Source of the DNA: Candidatus Saccharibacteria bacterium 49-20
Lineage (GTDB): Bacteria > Patescibacteriota > Saccharimonadia > Saccharimonadales > Saccharimonadaceae
Direction: 5' to 3'
Length of the DNA stretch: 64,000 bases
Assembly (NCBI GenBank): GCA_001897295.1
Contig: MKSN01000001.1
Span: 310,001-374,000, forward strand
Part shown: piece after piece, positions 3,329-7,947 of the stretch
Layout: each line of letters opens with the position of its first letter
How positions within the stretch are numbered: position 1 is the stretch's first letter
The notes under the pieces: generated by a model
Seen by the model: the letters and a program-made list of their open reading frames with translations, nothing else
Databases searched by the model: none
Told to the model about the DNA's origin: nothing
Position numbers and translations under genes: made by a program

Positions 3329-3810
3329 TGACTAAGTACAACGAACTCCTAGCTGGTCCTAACAAGGACAAGAAACGCGTAGGTCGTGGTATCTCAGCTG
3401 GCGGTGGTAAAACTGCTGGTCGTGGTACTAAGGGTCAGGGCTCACGTACTGGTAAGAAGCTTGGTGCTACTTTCCAGGGTGGTCAACGTACACTCGTACG
3501 TGCAGTGCCTAAGGCTCGTGGTTTCAAGAGTCTTCGTACTCCAGCGCAAGTTGTCTACCTCGACACCCTTAACGACTTTAAGGGTAAGACTGTCGACAAC
3601 GCGGCACTTTTCGAACAAGGATACATTGGCACTCCTTTCCACACCGTAAAGGTCATCACTCGTGGTGAACTTACCGCAGCACTTACCGTAAAGGTAGCCG
3701 GTGCAAGTAAGTCTTCACAAGAAGCGATCGTGAAGGCTGGTGGTGCGTTTGAAAAGACGGCTGTGCCGTTGAAGCAAAGCACAAAAGCGGCTGAAGCAAG
3801 CGACAAGTAA
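3328..3810 (+). CDS. rplO: Large-subunit ribosomal protein uL15 (L15)
   Basis: 160 residues. The N-terminus has the Gly/Lys-rich RNA-binding tail (VGRGISAGGGKTAGRGTKG), and the C-terminal globular domain follows. L15 is a late assembly protein of the 50S subunit. Its ATG overlaps the rpsE stop (TAATG), so translation is probably coupled. It ends the operon segment and is followed by a terminator; secY has its own promoter downstream. Confidence 0.96.
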   Translation: MTKYNELLAGPNKDKKRVGRGISAGGGKTAGRGTKGQGSRTGKKLGATFQGGQRTLVRAVPKARGFKSLRTPAQVVYLDTLNDFKGKTVDNAALFEQGYIGTPFHTVKVITRGELTAALTVKVAGASKSSQEAIVKAGGAFEKTAVPLKQSTKAAEASDK

Positions 3811-3822
3811 TCATACTTGGAG

Positions 3823-3852
3823 AAAATACCCCATTTCGGTGGGGTATTTTTT
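3823..3852. terminator. Bidirectional intrinsic terminator between rplO and the convergent small gene
   Basis: Stem AAAATACCCCA / TGGGGTATTTT (3823-3833 and 3840-3850), loop of 6 nt, with T runs on either strand. It overlaps the last codon of the minus-strand gene at 3851-3853. Confidence 0.88.
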
Positions 3853-4207
3853 ATTTGGTTCCAAAGGCAAGTCCGTATGTCGTGTAGATAGGACTAATTG
3901 AGAGATCGAGTTCGCCACCGGGTGTGCACTCCTCAGATACATACCCGTCCGCAAGCTCTGCGCTTAATATGAGGGAAGCTTGCTCGGAATATTCAGGGAG
4001 CGTCGCCTCCTAGAGGTCTTCGGCAACTTGAGATTTTGCATGCGCGTCAGCTGCTACCCATGCGAGACCAGACGTGGCGAGAGAACCTATAAGTGTCATG
4101 GCGGCAAATCGAACACCGAGACGCTCGTGAAATTTCTTCGGTATATCGGCAGTCGTGAGGAGGGGAAAAGGCTCGGTTATTGCATCATGGAGTTCAGGTT
4201 CGGGCAT
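3851..4207 (-). pseudogene. Small membrane-anchored protein gene interrupted by an in-frame amber codon
   Basis: From ATG at 4207 the minus strand codes for MPEPELHDAITEPFPLLTTA and a hydrophobic segment (FAAMTLIGSLATSGLAWVAA) up to TAG at 4012-4010. The same frame then stays open for 52 more codons of protein-like sequence (start EATLPEYSEQASLIL, end SPIYTTYGLAFGTK) to TAA at 3853-3851, next to the terminator. There is no start codon just after the TAG. The intact product would be about 118 residues: a short cytoplasmic end, one membrane segment and an outer domain. Function is unknown. A nonsense mutation, readthrough or a sequencing error are all possible. Confidence 0.6.
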
Positions 4208-4222
4208 AAGTATGCATATTAA

Positions 4223-4290
4223 ATCATAATATCGTAAATATGACAATATTCTTGATATAGCTAGATAACTGTGGGTAACTATAGTATAAT
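4223..4290. promoter_or_regulatory. Divergent promoter region of secY and the amber-interrupted gene
   Basis: TATAAT at 4285-4290 points toward secY, 46 nt before its ATG. On the other strand TATGAT (4228-4223) lies 15 nt before ATG 4207. Confidence 0.5.
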
Positions 4291-4336
4291 CAAATCAAAT
4301 TGTATAAGTAACTTCGGGGTAGTCTGGAACAGTCTG

Positions 4337-5752
4337 ATGAATTGGAAAACAATCTTTCGCTCGCTTAAAAACCGCGACATGCAAAAGCGGCTTTTAATTG
4401 TATTAGGTTTAATTATTGCGTATCGCTTGCTCGCACACGTACCGGTGCCACTGGCTGAGCCAACTCAGCTTCGCGAAGTCATCAACAGTGTGGTGAGTGG
4501 TACTGACTTTGGTGGGTTCTTGAACCTTCTCTCTGGTGGTGCGCTTGCAAGCTTCTCGATCGTGCTCGTAGGACTTACGCCGTTCATTACCGCGTCGGTT
4601 ATTACGCAGCTTCTTACTAAGGCGATCCCTCGCCTTGAAGAGCTTCACAAGGATGGTGAATCTGGACGCCGTAAGATTAACCAATGGACTCGTATGATTA
4701 CGGTGCCGCTTGCAATTGTGCAGTCGATTGCCTTTATTTTCATCCTAAGGCAGACCGTCCTCGCGGGTAATACTACGGTACTTGCCGACCCTACGGCTAT
4801 CGAGTGGATCGTCGCGGTAACTGCTATGACTGCGGGCTCGCTACTCCTCATGTGGCTCGGTGAGCTCATTACCGAACAGGGGATTGGAAACGGTATTAGT
4901 CTTCTTATCTTTGCGGGTATTATTAGCCAGCTTCCTTCAATCCTTTCAACCTTTGCAACTTCACTCTTCGATACAACAAACGGCTCACTCCAAGTATTTA
5001 ACTGGTTTGCAATTCCGGTGAATCCGACGCTCTTCTGGGTTATCTTGGCAATCCTGGCGTTCTCGCTATTCCTGCTCTACTTCCTGGTAAAGATCAACGA
5101 AGCACAGCGTGTCATTACGATTAACTACGCAAAGCGAGTGCAGGGTAACAGTAGCTATGGCGGGGTAAAGAGTATCCTCCCGATCAAGCTTATCGCTGCC
5201 GGTGTGATCCCAGTGATCTTCGCAGTCGCATTCCTTTCACTTCCTGCCTTCGTGGGGCAAATCCTTAAGGCAACAGGCAACCCAGAATACGCCGAGCTTG
5301 CGAATAACCTCATTCTTTGGTTCCAAGCACCAAACCCAGGCGCCTTTACTGGTTCTGAGTGGCAAGCGTTCATCTACCCACTTGCGTACTTTGTACTCGT
5401 AATCTTCTTTACCTACTTCTATACAGGTATTGTGTTTAACGCGAGTGAAATCGCCGAGAACCTCCAGAAGCAAGGTGGATTTATCGAAGGTGTACGCCCA
5501 GGTAAGCAAACTGAAAAGTACCTTTCTACAACCGTCAACCGCCTTATCCTATTCGGATCAGTAGTTCTTGGTCTTATTGCTGTGACGCCATTTATCGCGG
5601 AATACCTTTTGTACCAAGTCGCGGGTATCACAAACACCAACCTTGCGATTGGTGGTACGGGTCTGCTCATTGTGGTATCGGTTGGTCTTGAAACCCTTCG
5701 TCAGATCAACTCACGTGCGCTTATGGTCACCTACGATGACTACGACCGCTAA
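4337..5752 (+). CDS. secY: Preprotein translocase subunit SecY
   Basis: 471 residues from ATG 4337 (MNWKTIFRSLKNRDMQKRLL), with about ten membrane segments. Family motifs include the plug region, the GIGNGISLLIF segment and the cytoplasmic loop with NYAKRVQG. SecY is the channel of the Sec pathway in the inner membrane; secE is found at 40252. The frame is open upstream to 4271, but this start fits the family N-terminus and lies downstream of the TATAAT box. The usual followers adk and map are absent; two GC-rich orphan genes stand there instead. Confidence 0.95.
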   Translation: MNWKTIFRSLKNRDMQKRLLIVLGLIIAYRLLAHVPVPLAEPTQLREVINSVVSGTDFGGFLNLLSGGALASFSIVLVGLTPFITASVITQLLTKAIPRLEELHKDGESGRRKINQWTRMITVPLAIVQSIAFIFILRQTVLAGNTTVLADPTAIEWIVAVTAMTAGSLLLMWLGELITEQGIGNGISLLIFAGIISQLPSILSTFATSLFDTTNGSLQVFNWFAIPVNPTLFWVILAILAFSLFLLYFLVKINEAQRVITINYAKRVQGNSSYGGVKSILPIKLIAAGVIPVIFAVAFLSLPAFVGQILKATGNPEYAELANNLILWFQAPNPGAFTGSEWQAFIYPLAYFVLVIFFTYFYTGIVFNASEIAENLQKQGGFIEGVRPGKQTEKYLSTTVNRLILFGSVVLGLIAVTPFIAEYLLYQVAGITNTNLAIGGTGLLIVVSVGLETLRQINSRALMVTYDDYDR

Positions 5753-5777
5753 GCTTTAAGTACTCGTCGATTTATGG

Positions 5778-5837
5778 TATAATAATAGTATGTCTCCACG
5801 AAAGTCGTGGAGCATATTATTTGACAGGAGGTGCGCG
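5778..5837 (+). promoter_or_regulatory. Promoter and hairpin leader of GC-rich cassette 1
   Basis: Extended -10 TGG-TATAAT (5778-5783). A perfect 8-bp hairpin (CTCCACGA 5794-5801, TCGTGGAG 5805-5812) lies close to the expected 5' end of the mRNA. The ribosome binding site is inside GACAGGAGGTG (5823-5833), which is exactly complementary to CACCTCCTGTC at 6250-6260 behind the gene. Confidence 0.65.
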
Positions 5838-6221
5838 TTGAGCGCACAAGACTACGCCAAGAGTCTGCGACTGGACGAATCGAATCCGCACGTCTCGACG
5901 TACGGTCTCAAAGCGACGCAGATCATCTTCGATGGCTACGCTAATGTGTGGAAGCGGTTCGGCGAAGTGTGTGACCGGGGAATCTTCTCCAAGAACGAGG
6001 TCCTCTCGCACAAGCTCCATGCTGGTGACTGGACGGCGCCGCCTCTTCTGGAGGCAAAGGCGCTCGCGCAGTTCAAGGGCCTCATCCGCATGGATGACTC
6101 CGAGGACGTACTGCGAGCTATCTGGTATATCCTCCAAAACGTATGTGGTGAGCGCGTGCTCACCCCCGTGCTTCGCCTTGACCCCGATACGGGAGTTGAG
6201 GAAGCAAGGTTGATGCGTTGA
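5838..6221 (+). CDS. GC-rich orphan protein, cassette 1 (unknown function)
   Basis: 127 residues from TTG 5838, chosen because AGGAGG stands 6 nt before it; the longer frame would start inside the leader hairpin. The product begins MSAQDYAKSLRLDESNPHV and is a mixed-charge soluble protein with no membrane segment and no motif I recognise. Codons ending in G or C dominate, unlike secY next to it. It lies alone between secY and infA. Leader and 3' region are complementary over 11 nt including the ribosome binding site. Origin by transfer is possible; translation is likely but untested. Confidence 0.7.
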   Translation: MSAQDYAKSLRLDESNPHVSTYGLKATQIIFDGYANVWKRFGEVCDRGIFSKNEVLSHKLHAGDWTAPPLLEAKALAQFKGLIRMDDSEDVLRAIWYILQNVCGERVLTPVLRLDPDTGVEEARLMR

Positions 6222-6306
6222 GGAGGGGCTAGGGCGGATGTGGCTCCGCCACCTCCTGTCCCTATCCTTGAGTGGTGAATACATTTATTCACCTTTGGAG
6301 GATAGG
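6221..6306 (+). promoter_or_regulatory. 3' element of cassette 1: SD-complementary segment and hairpins
   Basis: AGGAGG 6221-6226 and GGCGGA 6233-6238 can pair with CCTCCT 6252-6257 and TCCGCC 6245-6250. The segment CACCTCCTGTC 6250-6260 is also complementary to the leader at 5823-5833, so two foldings compete. Next is a second hairpin, CCTATCCT 6261-6268 / AGGATAGG 6299-6306 with inner GGTGAATA / TATTCACC. CTGTCCCTATCCTT (6256-6269) recurs at 6999-7012. Confidence 0.6.
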
Positions 6307-6334
6307 TATAATTGCAGAATTGCCATGAAAATGG

Positions 6335-6405
6335 TATAATTATATTCTACCCACCCACCAGTTCCACCGGCAGGTGGGCGAACAATTGACAGAGGATGTG
6401 ATCGT
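6335..6405 (+). promoter_or_regulatory. Promoter and leader of GC-rich cassette 2
   Basis: Extended -10 TGG-TATAAT (6335-6340), then a hairpin CCCACC 6354-6359 / GGTGGG 6373-6378. The ribosome binding site lies in GACAGAGGATG (6388-6398), exactly complementary to CATCCTCTGTC at 6993-7003. The TTGACA within it is too close to the start codon to be a -35 box. Confidence 0.65.
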
Positions 6406-6942
6406 ATGGCATCGGTTGATCTGCGGATCAGGCGTACTGCTCGCCGCTCGAAAGAGCGCTGGGCACTGCACGACAAGACGGCCTACAAGACCGTCAAGGC
6501 CCGTAGGGCCTTCCAGGTGCTGCTCGAGCGGCAGGACCTGGAGGAGCTGCGTGAGCTTCTCAACGACGAGATCTTCAACATGCAGGAGCGCTTCGTGCGT
6601 TCGATGGGCATTCGTGGTCGTCTTACCACGGCTGAGCGCCGGCTTCTCGTGAAGCAGCTGCACACGAAGACGTTCGACGAGACGTACCATGACCGTGGCC
6701 CCGACTCGAAGAACGAGCGCTCACGTGTGCGCATCGAGTCGCTGCTCGTGCTGTGTCGTGGTGACCATGAGCTTCTGCTGCGCGAGTACGTACGTGCGCT
6801 CGAGAAGTTCTTCCCGGTCGAGTCGTGGTCGAAGCACTACGTCTGGAACCCGCGGCTCTTCGTGAAGACGCTCAAGTCCGGTAAGCCCCGCACTACGCTG
6901 CGCCACAGCATGAGCTACCGCAGTCGTGTCGAGGGCGCCTGA
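6406..6942 (+). CDS. GC-rich orphan protein, cassette 2 (basic, unknown function)
   Basis: 178 residues from ATG 6406, with GAGGA 8-13 nt upstream. The N-terminus is very basic (VDLRIRRTARRSKERW) and the rest is helical and charged, with many Arg and Glu; nucleic-acid binding is conceivable but is only a guess. No known domain is recognised. Leucine codons are almost all CTG, CTC or CTT and Arg codons mostly CGT/CGC, giving a GC-rich gene unlike infA or secY. It is a single-gene unit between cassette 1 and infA, with 11-nt leader/3' complementarity. Confidence 0.7.
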   Translation: MASVDLRIRRTARRSKERWALHDKTAYKTVKARRAFQVLLERQDLEELRELLNDEIFNMQERFVRSMGIRGRLTTAERRLLVKQLHTKTFDETYHDRGPDSKNERSRVRIESLLVLCRGDHELLLREYVRALEKFFPVESWSKHYVWNPRLFVKTLKSGKPRTTLRHSMSYRSRVEGA

Positions 6943-6961
6943 CGTGTGCTCAATACCCCTA

Positions 6962-7038
6962 GGTGCACCTTGTGTACCGGGAGGGCCAGACTCATCCTCT
7001 GTCCCTATCCTTATGGGATAAACCCGCAAGGAGGTTTA
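6962..7038 (+). promoter_or_regulatory. 3' element of cassette 2: SD-complementary segment and hairpins
   Basis: Hairpin GGTGCAC 6962-6968 / GTGTACC 6972-6978 (one G-T pair) is followed by CATCCTCTGTC 6993-7003, complementary to the cassette 2 leader. Small stems TATCC / GGATA (7006-7020) and TAAACC / GGTTTA (7019-7038) follow. It shares CTGTCCCTATCCTT with the 3' element of cassette 1. Confidence 0.55.
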
Positions 7039-7061
7039 TACTATAAGCATGGGCGGCGTAT

Positions 7062-7190
7062 ATTGACGTGATACGTCAATTTGCTACAATATAACTATTA
7101 TTACGTACCGTAGCCGAGCAATCGGTAGGTATCTTCTTGAAAACGGTTTACTTGCATCAAGTTTTGGTGTATAATGTACTACTGTAACTT
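7062..7190 (+). promoter_or_regulatory. infA promoters with palindromic site
   Basis: An upstream promoter has TTGACG (7063-7068), 16 nt, then TG-C-TACAAT (7085-7090). Its -35 box sits in a perfect inverted repeat, ATTGACGT-GAT-ACGTCAAT (7062-7080), a candidate operator. A second promoter, TTTACT 7147-7152, 17 nt, TATAAT 7070-type box at 7170-7175, would give a leader of about 8 nt before infA. Confidence 0.6.
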
Positions 7191-7421
7191 ATGGCTAGTA
7201 CTAAAGAGGTAATCAAAATGCGAGGCAAGGTAGTGGAAGCACTGCCTAATACTCAATTTAAGGTTGAACTAGAGAACGGCCTGAGCATCATCGCGCACAT
7301 TAGCGGAAAAATGCGTAAAAACTATATCCGTCTTGTGCCTGGTGATATGGTGGACGTCGAGATGACCCCTTACGATCTCACGAAGGGACGAATCACGTAC
7401 CGCCACAAGGATCAAATTTAA
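7191..7421 (+). CDS. infA: Translation initiation factor IF-1
   Basis: 76 residues with the single S1/OB fold typical of IF-1: [19 protein letters not shown] near the start, [17 protein letters not shown] in the middle, GRITYRHK at the end. IF-1 binds the ribosomal A site during initiation. It starts the alpha-operon segment here, followed 20 nt later by rpmJ, the canonical order. Confidence 0.97.
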
Positions 7422-7441
7422 CTGGAGGATTCTGAATACTC

Positions 7442-7558
7442 ATGAAAGTTCGTGCGAGTGTAAAGAAAATTAGTCCAGATGACCAGTTGGTGCGCCGTAA
7501 AGGTCGCCTTCGGGTAATCAACAAGAAGAAACCTAAGAACAAGCAAAGGCAGGGTTAA
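7442..7558 (+). CDS. rpmJ: Large-subunit ribosomal protein bL36 (L36), zinc-free form
   Basis: 38 residues, [20 protein letters not shown] and ending [10 protein letters not shown], full length for L36. The usual zinc ligands (three Cys and one His) are absent: the CxxC position reads SPDD. It is therefore a C-minus L36. It lies between infA and rpsM, with a ribosome binding site GGAGG before ATG 7442. Confidence 0.95.
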
Positions 7559-7560
7559 GC

Positions 7561-7947
7561 ATGGCTCGAATTGCTGGGGTAGTTATTCCCGCAGAAAAGC
7601 AAGTTCAGATCGCTTTGACGTATATTTACGGCATCGGTCCGAAGTTTGCACGAGACATCCTTGCGGCGGCCAAGATTGAGCCGACCACTCGGGTGAAAGA
7701 TCTCACCGAGGCTGAAGAACAACGACTACGTGAAATCATTGATACTGATTACACCGTAGAAGGCGACCTCCAGCGTCTCGTAACAAACAATATTAAGCGT
7801 TTGAAGGACATCAACGCGTATCGCGGTCTTCGCCACAAGGCAGGACTTCCAGTAAATGGACAGCGAACACGTACGAATGCACGAACTCGTAAGGGTCGCG
7901 CGATCGCAGTTGGTGGAGCTCAACCTAAAGCAGCAAGTAAGACCTAG
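7561..7947 (+). CDS. rpsM: Small-subunit ribosomal protein uS13 (S13)
   Basis: 128 residues beginning [20 protein letters not shown] and with the conserved helix-two-turn-helix region [11 protein letters not shown]. The C-terminal tail [15 protein letters not shown] is typical. S13 contacts the P-site tRNA and the 50S subunit (bridge B1). It starts 2 nt after rpmJ ends. Confidence 0.97.

Follow-up and report, generated by a model that had tools for sequence, protein, structure and literature searches.

To our knowledge, pairing of the two ends of an mRNA over the Shine-Dalgarno sequence is well known in bacteria only from single examples. In the icaR mRNA of Staphylococcus aureus, the Shine-Dalgarno sequence is paired with a motif in the 3' untranslated region (3' UTR) of its own transcript, which prevents formation of the initiation complex and provides a substrate for RNase III (PMC3868564). 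In the hok and AapA3 toxin mRNAs, a long-distance interaction between the ends locks the Shine-Dalgarno sequence of the full-length mRNA (PMC6733600), and covariation has been reported for the hok family (PMC6733600 and references therein).

We have analysed a stretch of 64,000 nucleotides (the window) from a genome of the Saccharibacteria (Saccharimonadaceae), which are tiny parasitic bacteria; the genome has 904,897 bases in one contig, and its secY is closest in sequence to Saccharibacteria records. In the window two cassettes lie between secY and infA at positions 5700-7100. Such cassettes belong to class 1, and a second class of RNA was found both in this genome and elsewhere in the order. 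On the one hand, class 1 shares with icaR the complementarity between the 3' UTR and the Shine-Dalgarno sequence, whereas class 2 does not. On the other hand, icaR is a single gene with a UCCCCUG motif and a long 3' UTR (PMC3868564), whereas the frame in Saccharibacteria has dedicated hairpins, a helix of 10-15 bp, a short 3' UTR and many unrelated ORFs. Homology to icaR was not found, in that the window proteins have no Pfam or NCBIfam match and the window arms lack UCCCCUG. Class 1 also resembles hok and AapA in the end-to-end lock on the Shine-Dalgarno sequence, as judged from structure prediction and covariation. However, hok/Sok and AapA/IsoA encode short toxins with antisense RNAs, whereas the window ORFs encode charged proteins of 127 and 178 aa that are not short hydrophobic toxin peptides, and Saccharibacteria have the second class, in which the helix lies away from the Shine-Dalgarno sequence. 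Class 2 is similar to the large structured RNAs of Rfam in its GC-rich structure and closing helix, but carries a small ORF. By analogy, class 1 resembles icaR and hok/AapA in how it would work and appears to be a member of neither, as homology, an antisense promoter and a short toxin were not found. A literature search of incomplete coverage returned no description of clasped cassettes in Saccharibacteria. The clasp would represent a frame that an order of epibiotic bacteria has conserved and reused, with compensatory mutations preserving it as the enclosed proteins change. Our analysis also reveals, upstream of dusB, a large RNA without earlier description.

The two cassettes between secY and infA

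Both cassettes have the same parts in the same order: a promoter and a 5' hairpin come first, the ORF stands between a 5' arm and a 3' arm, and a 3' hairpin completes the unit (Table 1). After each ORF there is a perfect 11-nt complement of the 5' arm, and the hairpin starts from the very next base. The two pairs described in the first-pass annotation, GACAGGAGGTG with CACCTCCTGTC and GACAGAGGATG with CATCCTCTGTC, are present exactly where it had placed them, and a 14-nt repeat, CTGTCCCTATCCTT, occurs at 6256 and 6999. Both 5' arms start with GACAG and hold the Shine-Dalgarno sequence. In the promoter region, a near-identical 14-mer precedes cassette 2 as well as cassette 1, and the putative extended -10 element TGGTATAAT also precedes most copies from the same genus. 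The G+C contents of the two window ORFs are 0.58 and 0.62, compared with 0.49 for secY.

Considering that inverted repeats of at least 10 nt are common (83 per strand in the window), two copies in one genome are modest evidence for pairing. The first-pass annotation had suggested a search for further copies in the rest of the genome, and a motif search returned only the two class-1 cassettes of the window. Matches to CTGTCCCTATCCTT with two mismatches, other than those at 6256 and 6999, were no more frequent in this genome than matches to a reversed-pattern control.

Table 1. Features of the cassette site in the window, and the class-2 copy of the source genome
Feature	Position	Strand	Basis
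secY, flanks the cassettes on the left	4271..5752	+	synteny in 40 relatives
Cassette 1 promoter, extended -10 TGGTATAAT, without a clear -35	5775..5783	+	inferred from sequence
Cassette 1 5' hairpin, close to where the transcript presumably starts	5790..5815	+	full-transcript fold
Cassette 1 5' arm GACAGGAGGTG, includes Shine-Dalgarno GGAGG	5823..5833	+	sequence and covariation
Cassette 1 ORF, 127 aa, TTG start, function unassigned	5838..6221	+	ORF reading
Cassette 1 3' arm CACCTCCTGTC, complement of 5823-5833	6250..6260	+	inverted repeat and fold
Cassette 1 3' hairpin, directly after the 3' arm, without a U tract	6261..6306	+	inverted repeat, fold, covariation in 32 copies
Cassette 2 promoter, extended -10 TGGTATAAT	6332..6340	+	inferred from sequence
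Cassette 2 5' hairpin CCCACC..GGTGGG	6354..6378	+	full-transcript fold
Cassette 2 5' arm GACAGAGGATG, Shine-Dalgarno-like AGAGGA	6388..6398	+	sequence
Cassette 2 ORF, 178 aa, helical protein, function unassigned	6406..6942	+	homologues and AlphaFold model
Cassette 2 3' arm CATCCTCTGTC	6993..7003	+	inverted repeat and fold
Cassette 2 3' hairpin, directly after the 3' arm	7004..7053	+	inverted repeat, fold, covariance-model match
infA, right neighbour, own promoter-like site 7063-7090	7191..7421	+	ORF reading, synteny
Class-2 copy of the source genome, arms GACAGACAGAGAT-TT-AGTGC with GCACTATCTCTGTCTGTC	L238:680-1505 = G000:C1 about 429,100-429,930

Distribution and passenger proteins

The secY-infA gap was taken from 40 genomes of the family, and many of these gaps hold a cassette with its own matching arm pair, for example GACAGACGGG/CCCGTCTGTC and AGAGAAAGGAAG/CTTCCTTTCTCT. 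Further copies came from a covariance model built on the 3' element, and nearly all of these have a matching leader near a start codon; a second model reached other families of the order. In this way, 32 class-1 cassettes were found, at about 1-3 copies per genome. Among 380 genomes across the phylum, matches at E<=0.001 occurred only in Saccharimonadaceae, and the cassette family appears to be restricted to one order of Saccharibacteria. Carriers of the same genus include Candidatus Microsaccharimonas sossegonensis (L151, apparently G001) and strain TM7i (CP075337; L131, apparently G008), and in the public complete genome of the latter both classes seem to be present (L131/L055 and L241). Three weak model matches without a matching leader (L126, L230 and L231) were set aside as likely chance, and one locus (L224) was left out of the leader-trailer test because its contig ends there. 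The RNAs of both classes matched no Rfam family above the curated threshold.

The secY-infA gap itself is hypervariable in the family (window 5753-7190; L047-L086): in some genomes it is only 72-85 nt long, and in others it holds cassettes, sortase-like genes or a pilin-like gene (L129). The first half of one gap (L076:3829-5293) holds another ORF with a hairpin, a U-tract terminator and a possible short leader-trailer match, GGATAG/CTATCC, and this unit may be a related third type. Class-1 cassettes were also seen at other housekeeping junctions (L123 and L125), with neighbours judged by eye to be rpsG-like, and nrdR-like together with ftsZ-like.

The proteins of the class-1 cassettes are mostly unrelated to each other, comprising one five-member family, two weak pairs and otherwise orphans. 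They are mostly of 100-200 aa and soluble by sequence, the window proteins being charged, and the cassette proteins scanned, including those of the window, had no match in Pfam, PHROG or NCBIfam. The cassette 1 protein is weakly similar to the cassette protein of one other genome (G013; phmmer E 1e-4), and its structure model is poor (pLDDT 44). The cassette 2 protein has homologues in four genomes of the same genus at 29-42% identity (37-45% over the matched stretches), and three of these four genomes show matching arms too. Its AlphaFold model has a pLDDT of 83 and showed no match to a PDB fold at E<0.001. A protein alignment used as a query found nothing in viral contigs. As judged from these comparisons, conservation extends to the RNA frame but not to the enclosed protein. 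At one locus (L184:5480-5640) there is an apparently emptied cassette, in which the ORF is gone and about 28 nt separate the 5' domain and its GACAGAG from CTCTGTC and the 3' hairpin.

Covariation of the arms and predicted folds

In the alignment of the copies, 97.9% of the cells are paired over ten helix positions, and two-sided compensatory changes were found at nine of the first ten. The helix covariation, computed in a 10-position version (a 12-position version was also used), was 0.520 compared with 0.158 after shuffling, none of 500 shuffles reached the observed score, and registers slid along the arms gave at most 0.170. Compensated variants of the arms include AACAG..CTGTT (L014), GATAGAGGAGG..CCTCCTCTATC (L120) and GACAGAGCGG..CCGCTCTGTC (L123). 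The arm of cassette 2 is identical in two relatives (L012 and L013), and in L014 it is compensated at the helix end (AACAGAGGATG/CATCCTCTGTT).

When the leaders and trailers of 35 copies were exchanged, the pairing sum of the own pairs was 375.5 and the maximum of 1e5 permutations was 327; swapped pairs still reached an off-diagonal mean of 8.4 of 12, owing to the common GACAG core. The arms in this test had partly been located by complementarity, which is biased towards a positive result. Accordingly, the test was repeated with leaders taken from the ORF starts and trailers taken from the hairpin. In this case the own pairs scored 748.5, compared with a swapped mean of 553.9 (sd 18.1, maximum 651.5; 31 copies), the set still consisting of copies with recognised arms. 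The covariation tests take related sequences as independent, and most copies are far diverged. The first-pass annotation had read the differences between its two leaders as covariation reflecting real base pairing, and this reading is strongly supported over about 50 copies by the swap tests and the compensatory changes. As a rule, 3' motifs match their own leader, and the helix is short in only two class-1 copies (7 bp in G014 and 8 bp in G128). These alignments strongly support the view that the end-to-end pairing of the class-1 arms is real and kept by matching mutations across dozens of species.

The terminal hairpins belong to the same frame. The 5' hairpin is at the corresponding place in nearly all copies, and the 3' hairpin has two-sided changes at all 15 of its pairs (32 copies). 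In the 3' hairpin, G-U pairs outnumber A-C mismatches by 33 to 9 (P 2.7e-4), indicating that the RNA of the coding strand is the functional molecule. This strand assignment applies to the 3' hairpin only, because the same count in the long-range helix is even (11:11) and uninformative on strand. Covariation in many species shows both the pairing of the arms and the abutting hairpin at the level of sequence.

In the predicted ensembles of complete transcripts, a set which includes three class-2 copies, the median pairing probability of the arms was 0.99. The predicted probability that the Shine-Dalgarno region is unpaired was 0.01 in the complete transcript, compared with 0.43 without the 3' arm. 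The whole transcripts of the window cassettes have fold z values of -7 and -5. The class-1 coding regions are not clearly over-structured (median z -2.2 compared with a control mean of -1.3, P 0.06, class 2 included), and therefore these z values stem largely from the frame. As to the U tract that follows the stem of an intrinsic terminator, at least 5 T of 8 are found somewhere 3' of the hairpin in 9 of the 32 class-1 copies, the window copies not being among them.

Class-2 RNAs and the proposed mechanism

Class 2 was found upstream of dusB in 14 of the 15 same-genus genomes with a dusB match, including the source genome. It keeps the frame, with an arm of the GACAGAGATAGTG type after the promoter and the 5' hairpin, a hairpin that abuts the 3' arm, and a closing helix of 12-15 bp. 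The RNA is GC-rich, spans roughly 270-680 nt and encloses a GC-rich structure together with a small ORF, whose own Shine-Dalgarno sequence lies hundreds of nt further 3' than the 5' arm. The copy of the source genome, with a fold z of -10.3 relative to shuffles, was missed by both covariance models and found via dusB instead. The class-2 arms also covary (213 compared with at most 195 in 1e5 permutations, a conservative result as one copy was misregistered). In other families, class-2 copies are upstream of ABC transporter-like genes (L221 and L228). A U tract is present 3' of the hairpin in L240, L241, L250, L253 and L255.

We consider it fairly probable that the class-1 RNAs are Saccharibacteria-specific units clasped end to end, in which the complete mRNA would be locked and the nascent or 3'-shortened mRNA would be translatable. 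A 5' hairpin is followed by the 5' arm, the 3' arm, about 20-60 nt past the stop codon, abuts the terminal hairpin, and the arms form a helix of 10-15 bp. In class 1, including both window cassettes, the Shine-Dalgarno sequence lies inside the 5' arm. Because this arm would be paired, new ribosomes could not load on the finished full-length mRNA and its ends would be protected, and the nascent or 3'-shortened mRNA would be open to translation. Translation would then be limited to the time of transcription or to a later unlocking step, candidates being trimming from the 3' end, cutting of the helix by a nuclease and a trans-acting factor. Closure of the Shine-Dalgarno sequence in the complete class-1 transcript is a prediction of folding, and the folding contrast with and without the 3' arm supports, in the model, a lock that closes upon completion of the transcript. 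From this we infer repression in the cell, the transcript ends, an unlocking signal and protection of the ends. On the other hand, a nascent transcript could be translated before its 3' arm exists, which would make the repression weaker unless the message is long-lived.

The first-pass annotation had proposed that the helix hides the ribosome binding site. This holds for class 1, in which the arm contains the Shine-Dalgarno sequence and the predicted full-length fold closes it, but it falls short as the whole explanation, since the class-2 arm is hundreds of nt away from the Shine-Dalgarno sequence. Considering that the class-2 helix leaves the Shine-Dalgarno sequence of the small ORF uncovered, the lock cannot be the sole reason for conservation. 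Closure of the RNA ends looks like the feature common to both classes, and the translation lock looks like its application in class 1. Because the class-2 helix is conserved where a Shine-Dalgarno lock for the small ORF is not possible, the closing of the ends is probably the role that is older or more general. A stronger form of this argument is that the helix mainly closes or protects the RNA ends, for stability or as a protein scaffold, and that the overlap with the class-1 Shine-Dalgarno sequence is secondary. Three observations are consistent with such a role. The helix lies away from the Shine-Dalgarno sequence at dusB in 14 of 15 loci of the genus, as well as in other families; the frame includes 5' and 3' terminal hairpins; and the outer GACAG, although it does not resemble a Shine-Dalgarno sequence, is conserved best within the 5' arm. 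However, the 5' arm is at the start codon and on the Shine-Dalgarno sequence in nearly all class-1 copies (the arm of G197 is without Shine-Dalgarno character), a position that a pure clasp would not need, and full-length folding closes the Shine-Dalgarno sequence. We rate this stronger form, with end protection as the main role, as rather unlikely.

The arms could instead belong to a mobile DNA cassette, either as its terminal inverted repeats or as recombination sites that fold in single-stranded form. Different proteins, mostly of raised G+C, in one frame at one site, the hypervariable gap, the tandem copies in the window and the emptied frame in L184 would fit with mobility. The arms are, however, not the ends of the unit, because beyond one arm there are still the promoter and the 5' hairpin, and beyond the other there is the 3' hairpin. 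In addition, the arms differ among the copies of one genome and yet covary, the G-U bias of the hairpin is on the coding strand, the dusB copies are at one position in nearly every member of the genus, and the copy number is low; among the neighbours read, no recombinase or integrase was found beside the window pair. Mobility is a highly improbable account of the arms. We consider it highly improbable that these are type I toxin-antitoxin mRNAs of the hok/AapA kind, in which a locked full-length mRNA is activated by 3' processing. The end-to-end lock is as in AapA3 and hok (PMC6733600), but a consensus promoter scan of 3700-7600 found no antisense promoter on the minus strand of 5700-7200, and the class-1 products, with the sizes and solubility given above and mostly mutually unrelated, are not small membrane peptides. 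Chance complementarity between purine-rich leaders and pyrimidine-rich trailers could appeal to the frequent short inverted repeats of the window and to the fair pairing of swapped arms through the GACAG core. It has next to no probability, as own pairs outscore swapped ones and compensatory changes occur along nearly the whole helix, and it is refuted by the swap tests.

Beyond the clasped and locked class-1 mRNA, it is conceivable, although we hold this only tentatively, that the two classes form a new RNA architecture of Saccharibacteria that makes long-lived closed RNAs with deferred translation, for example until contact with the host bacterium. One class would be a cassette whose passengers are interchangeable and whose Shine-Dalgarno sequence is locked; the other, found mostly upstream of dusB, would be a large structured RNA that carries a small ORF.

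Two minor observations concern the class-2 loci. In some species the dusB start is inside the class-2 3' hairpin, and in others a U tract lies 3' of the hairpin. The small ORFs (L221, L228 and L229) encode cysteine-rich, zinc-finger-like peptides in some species and other sequences elsewhere.
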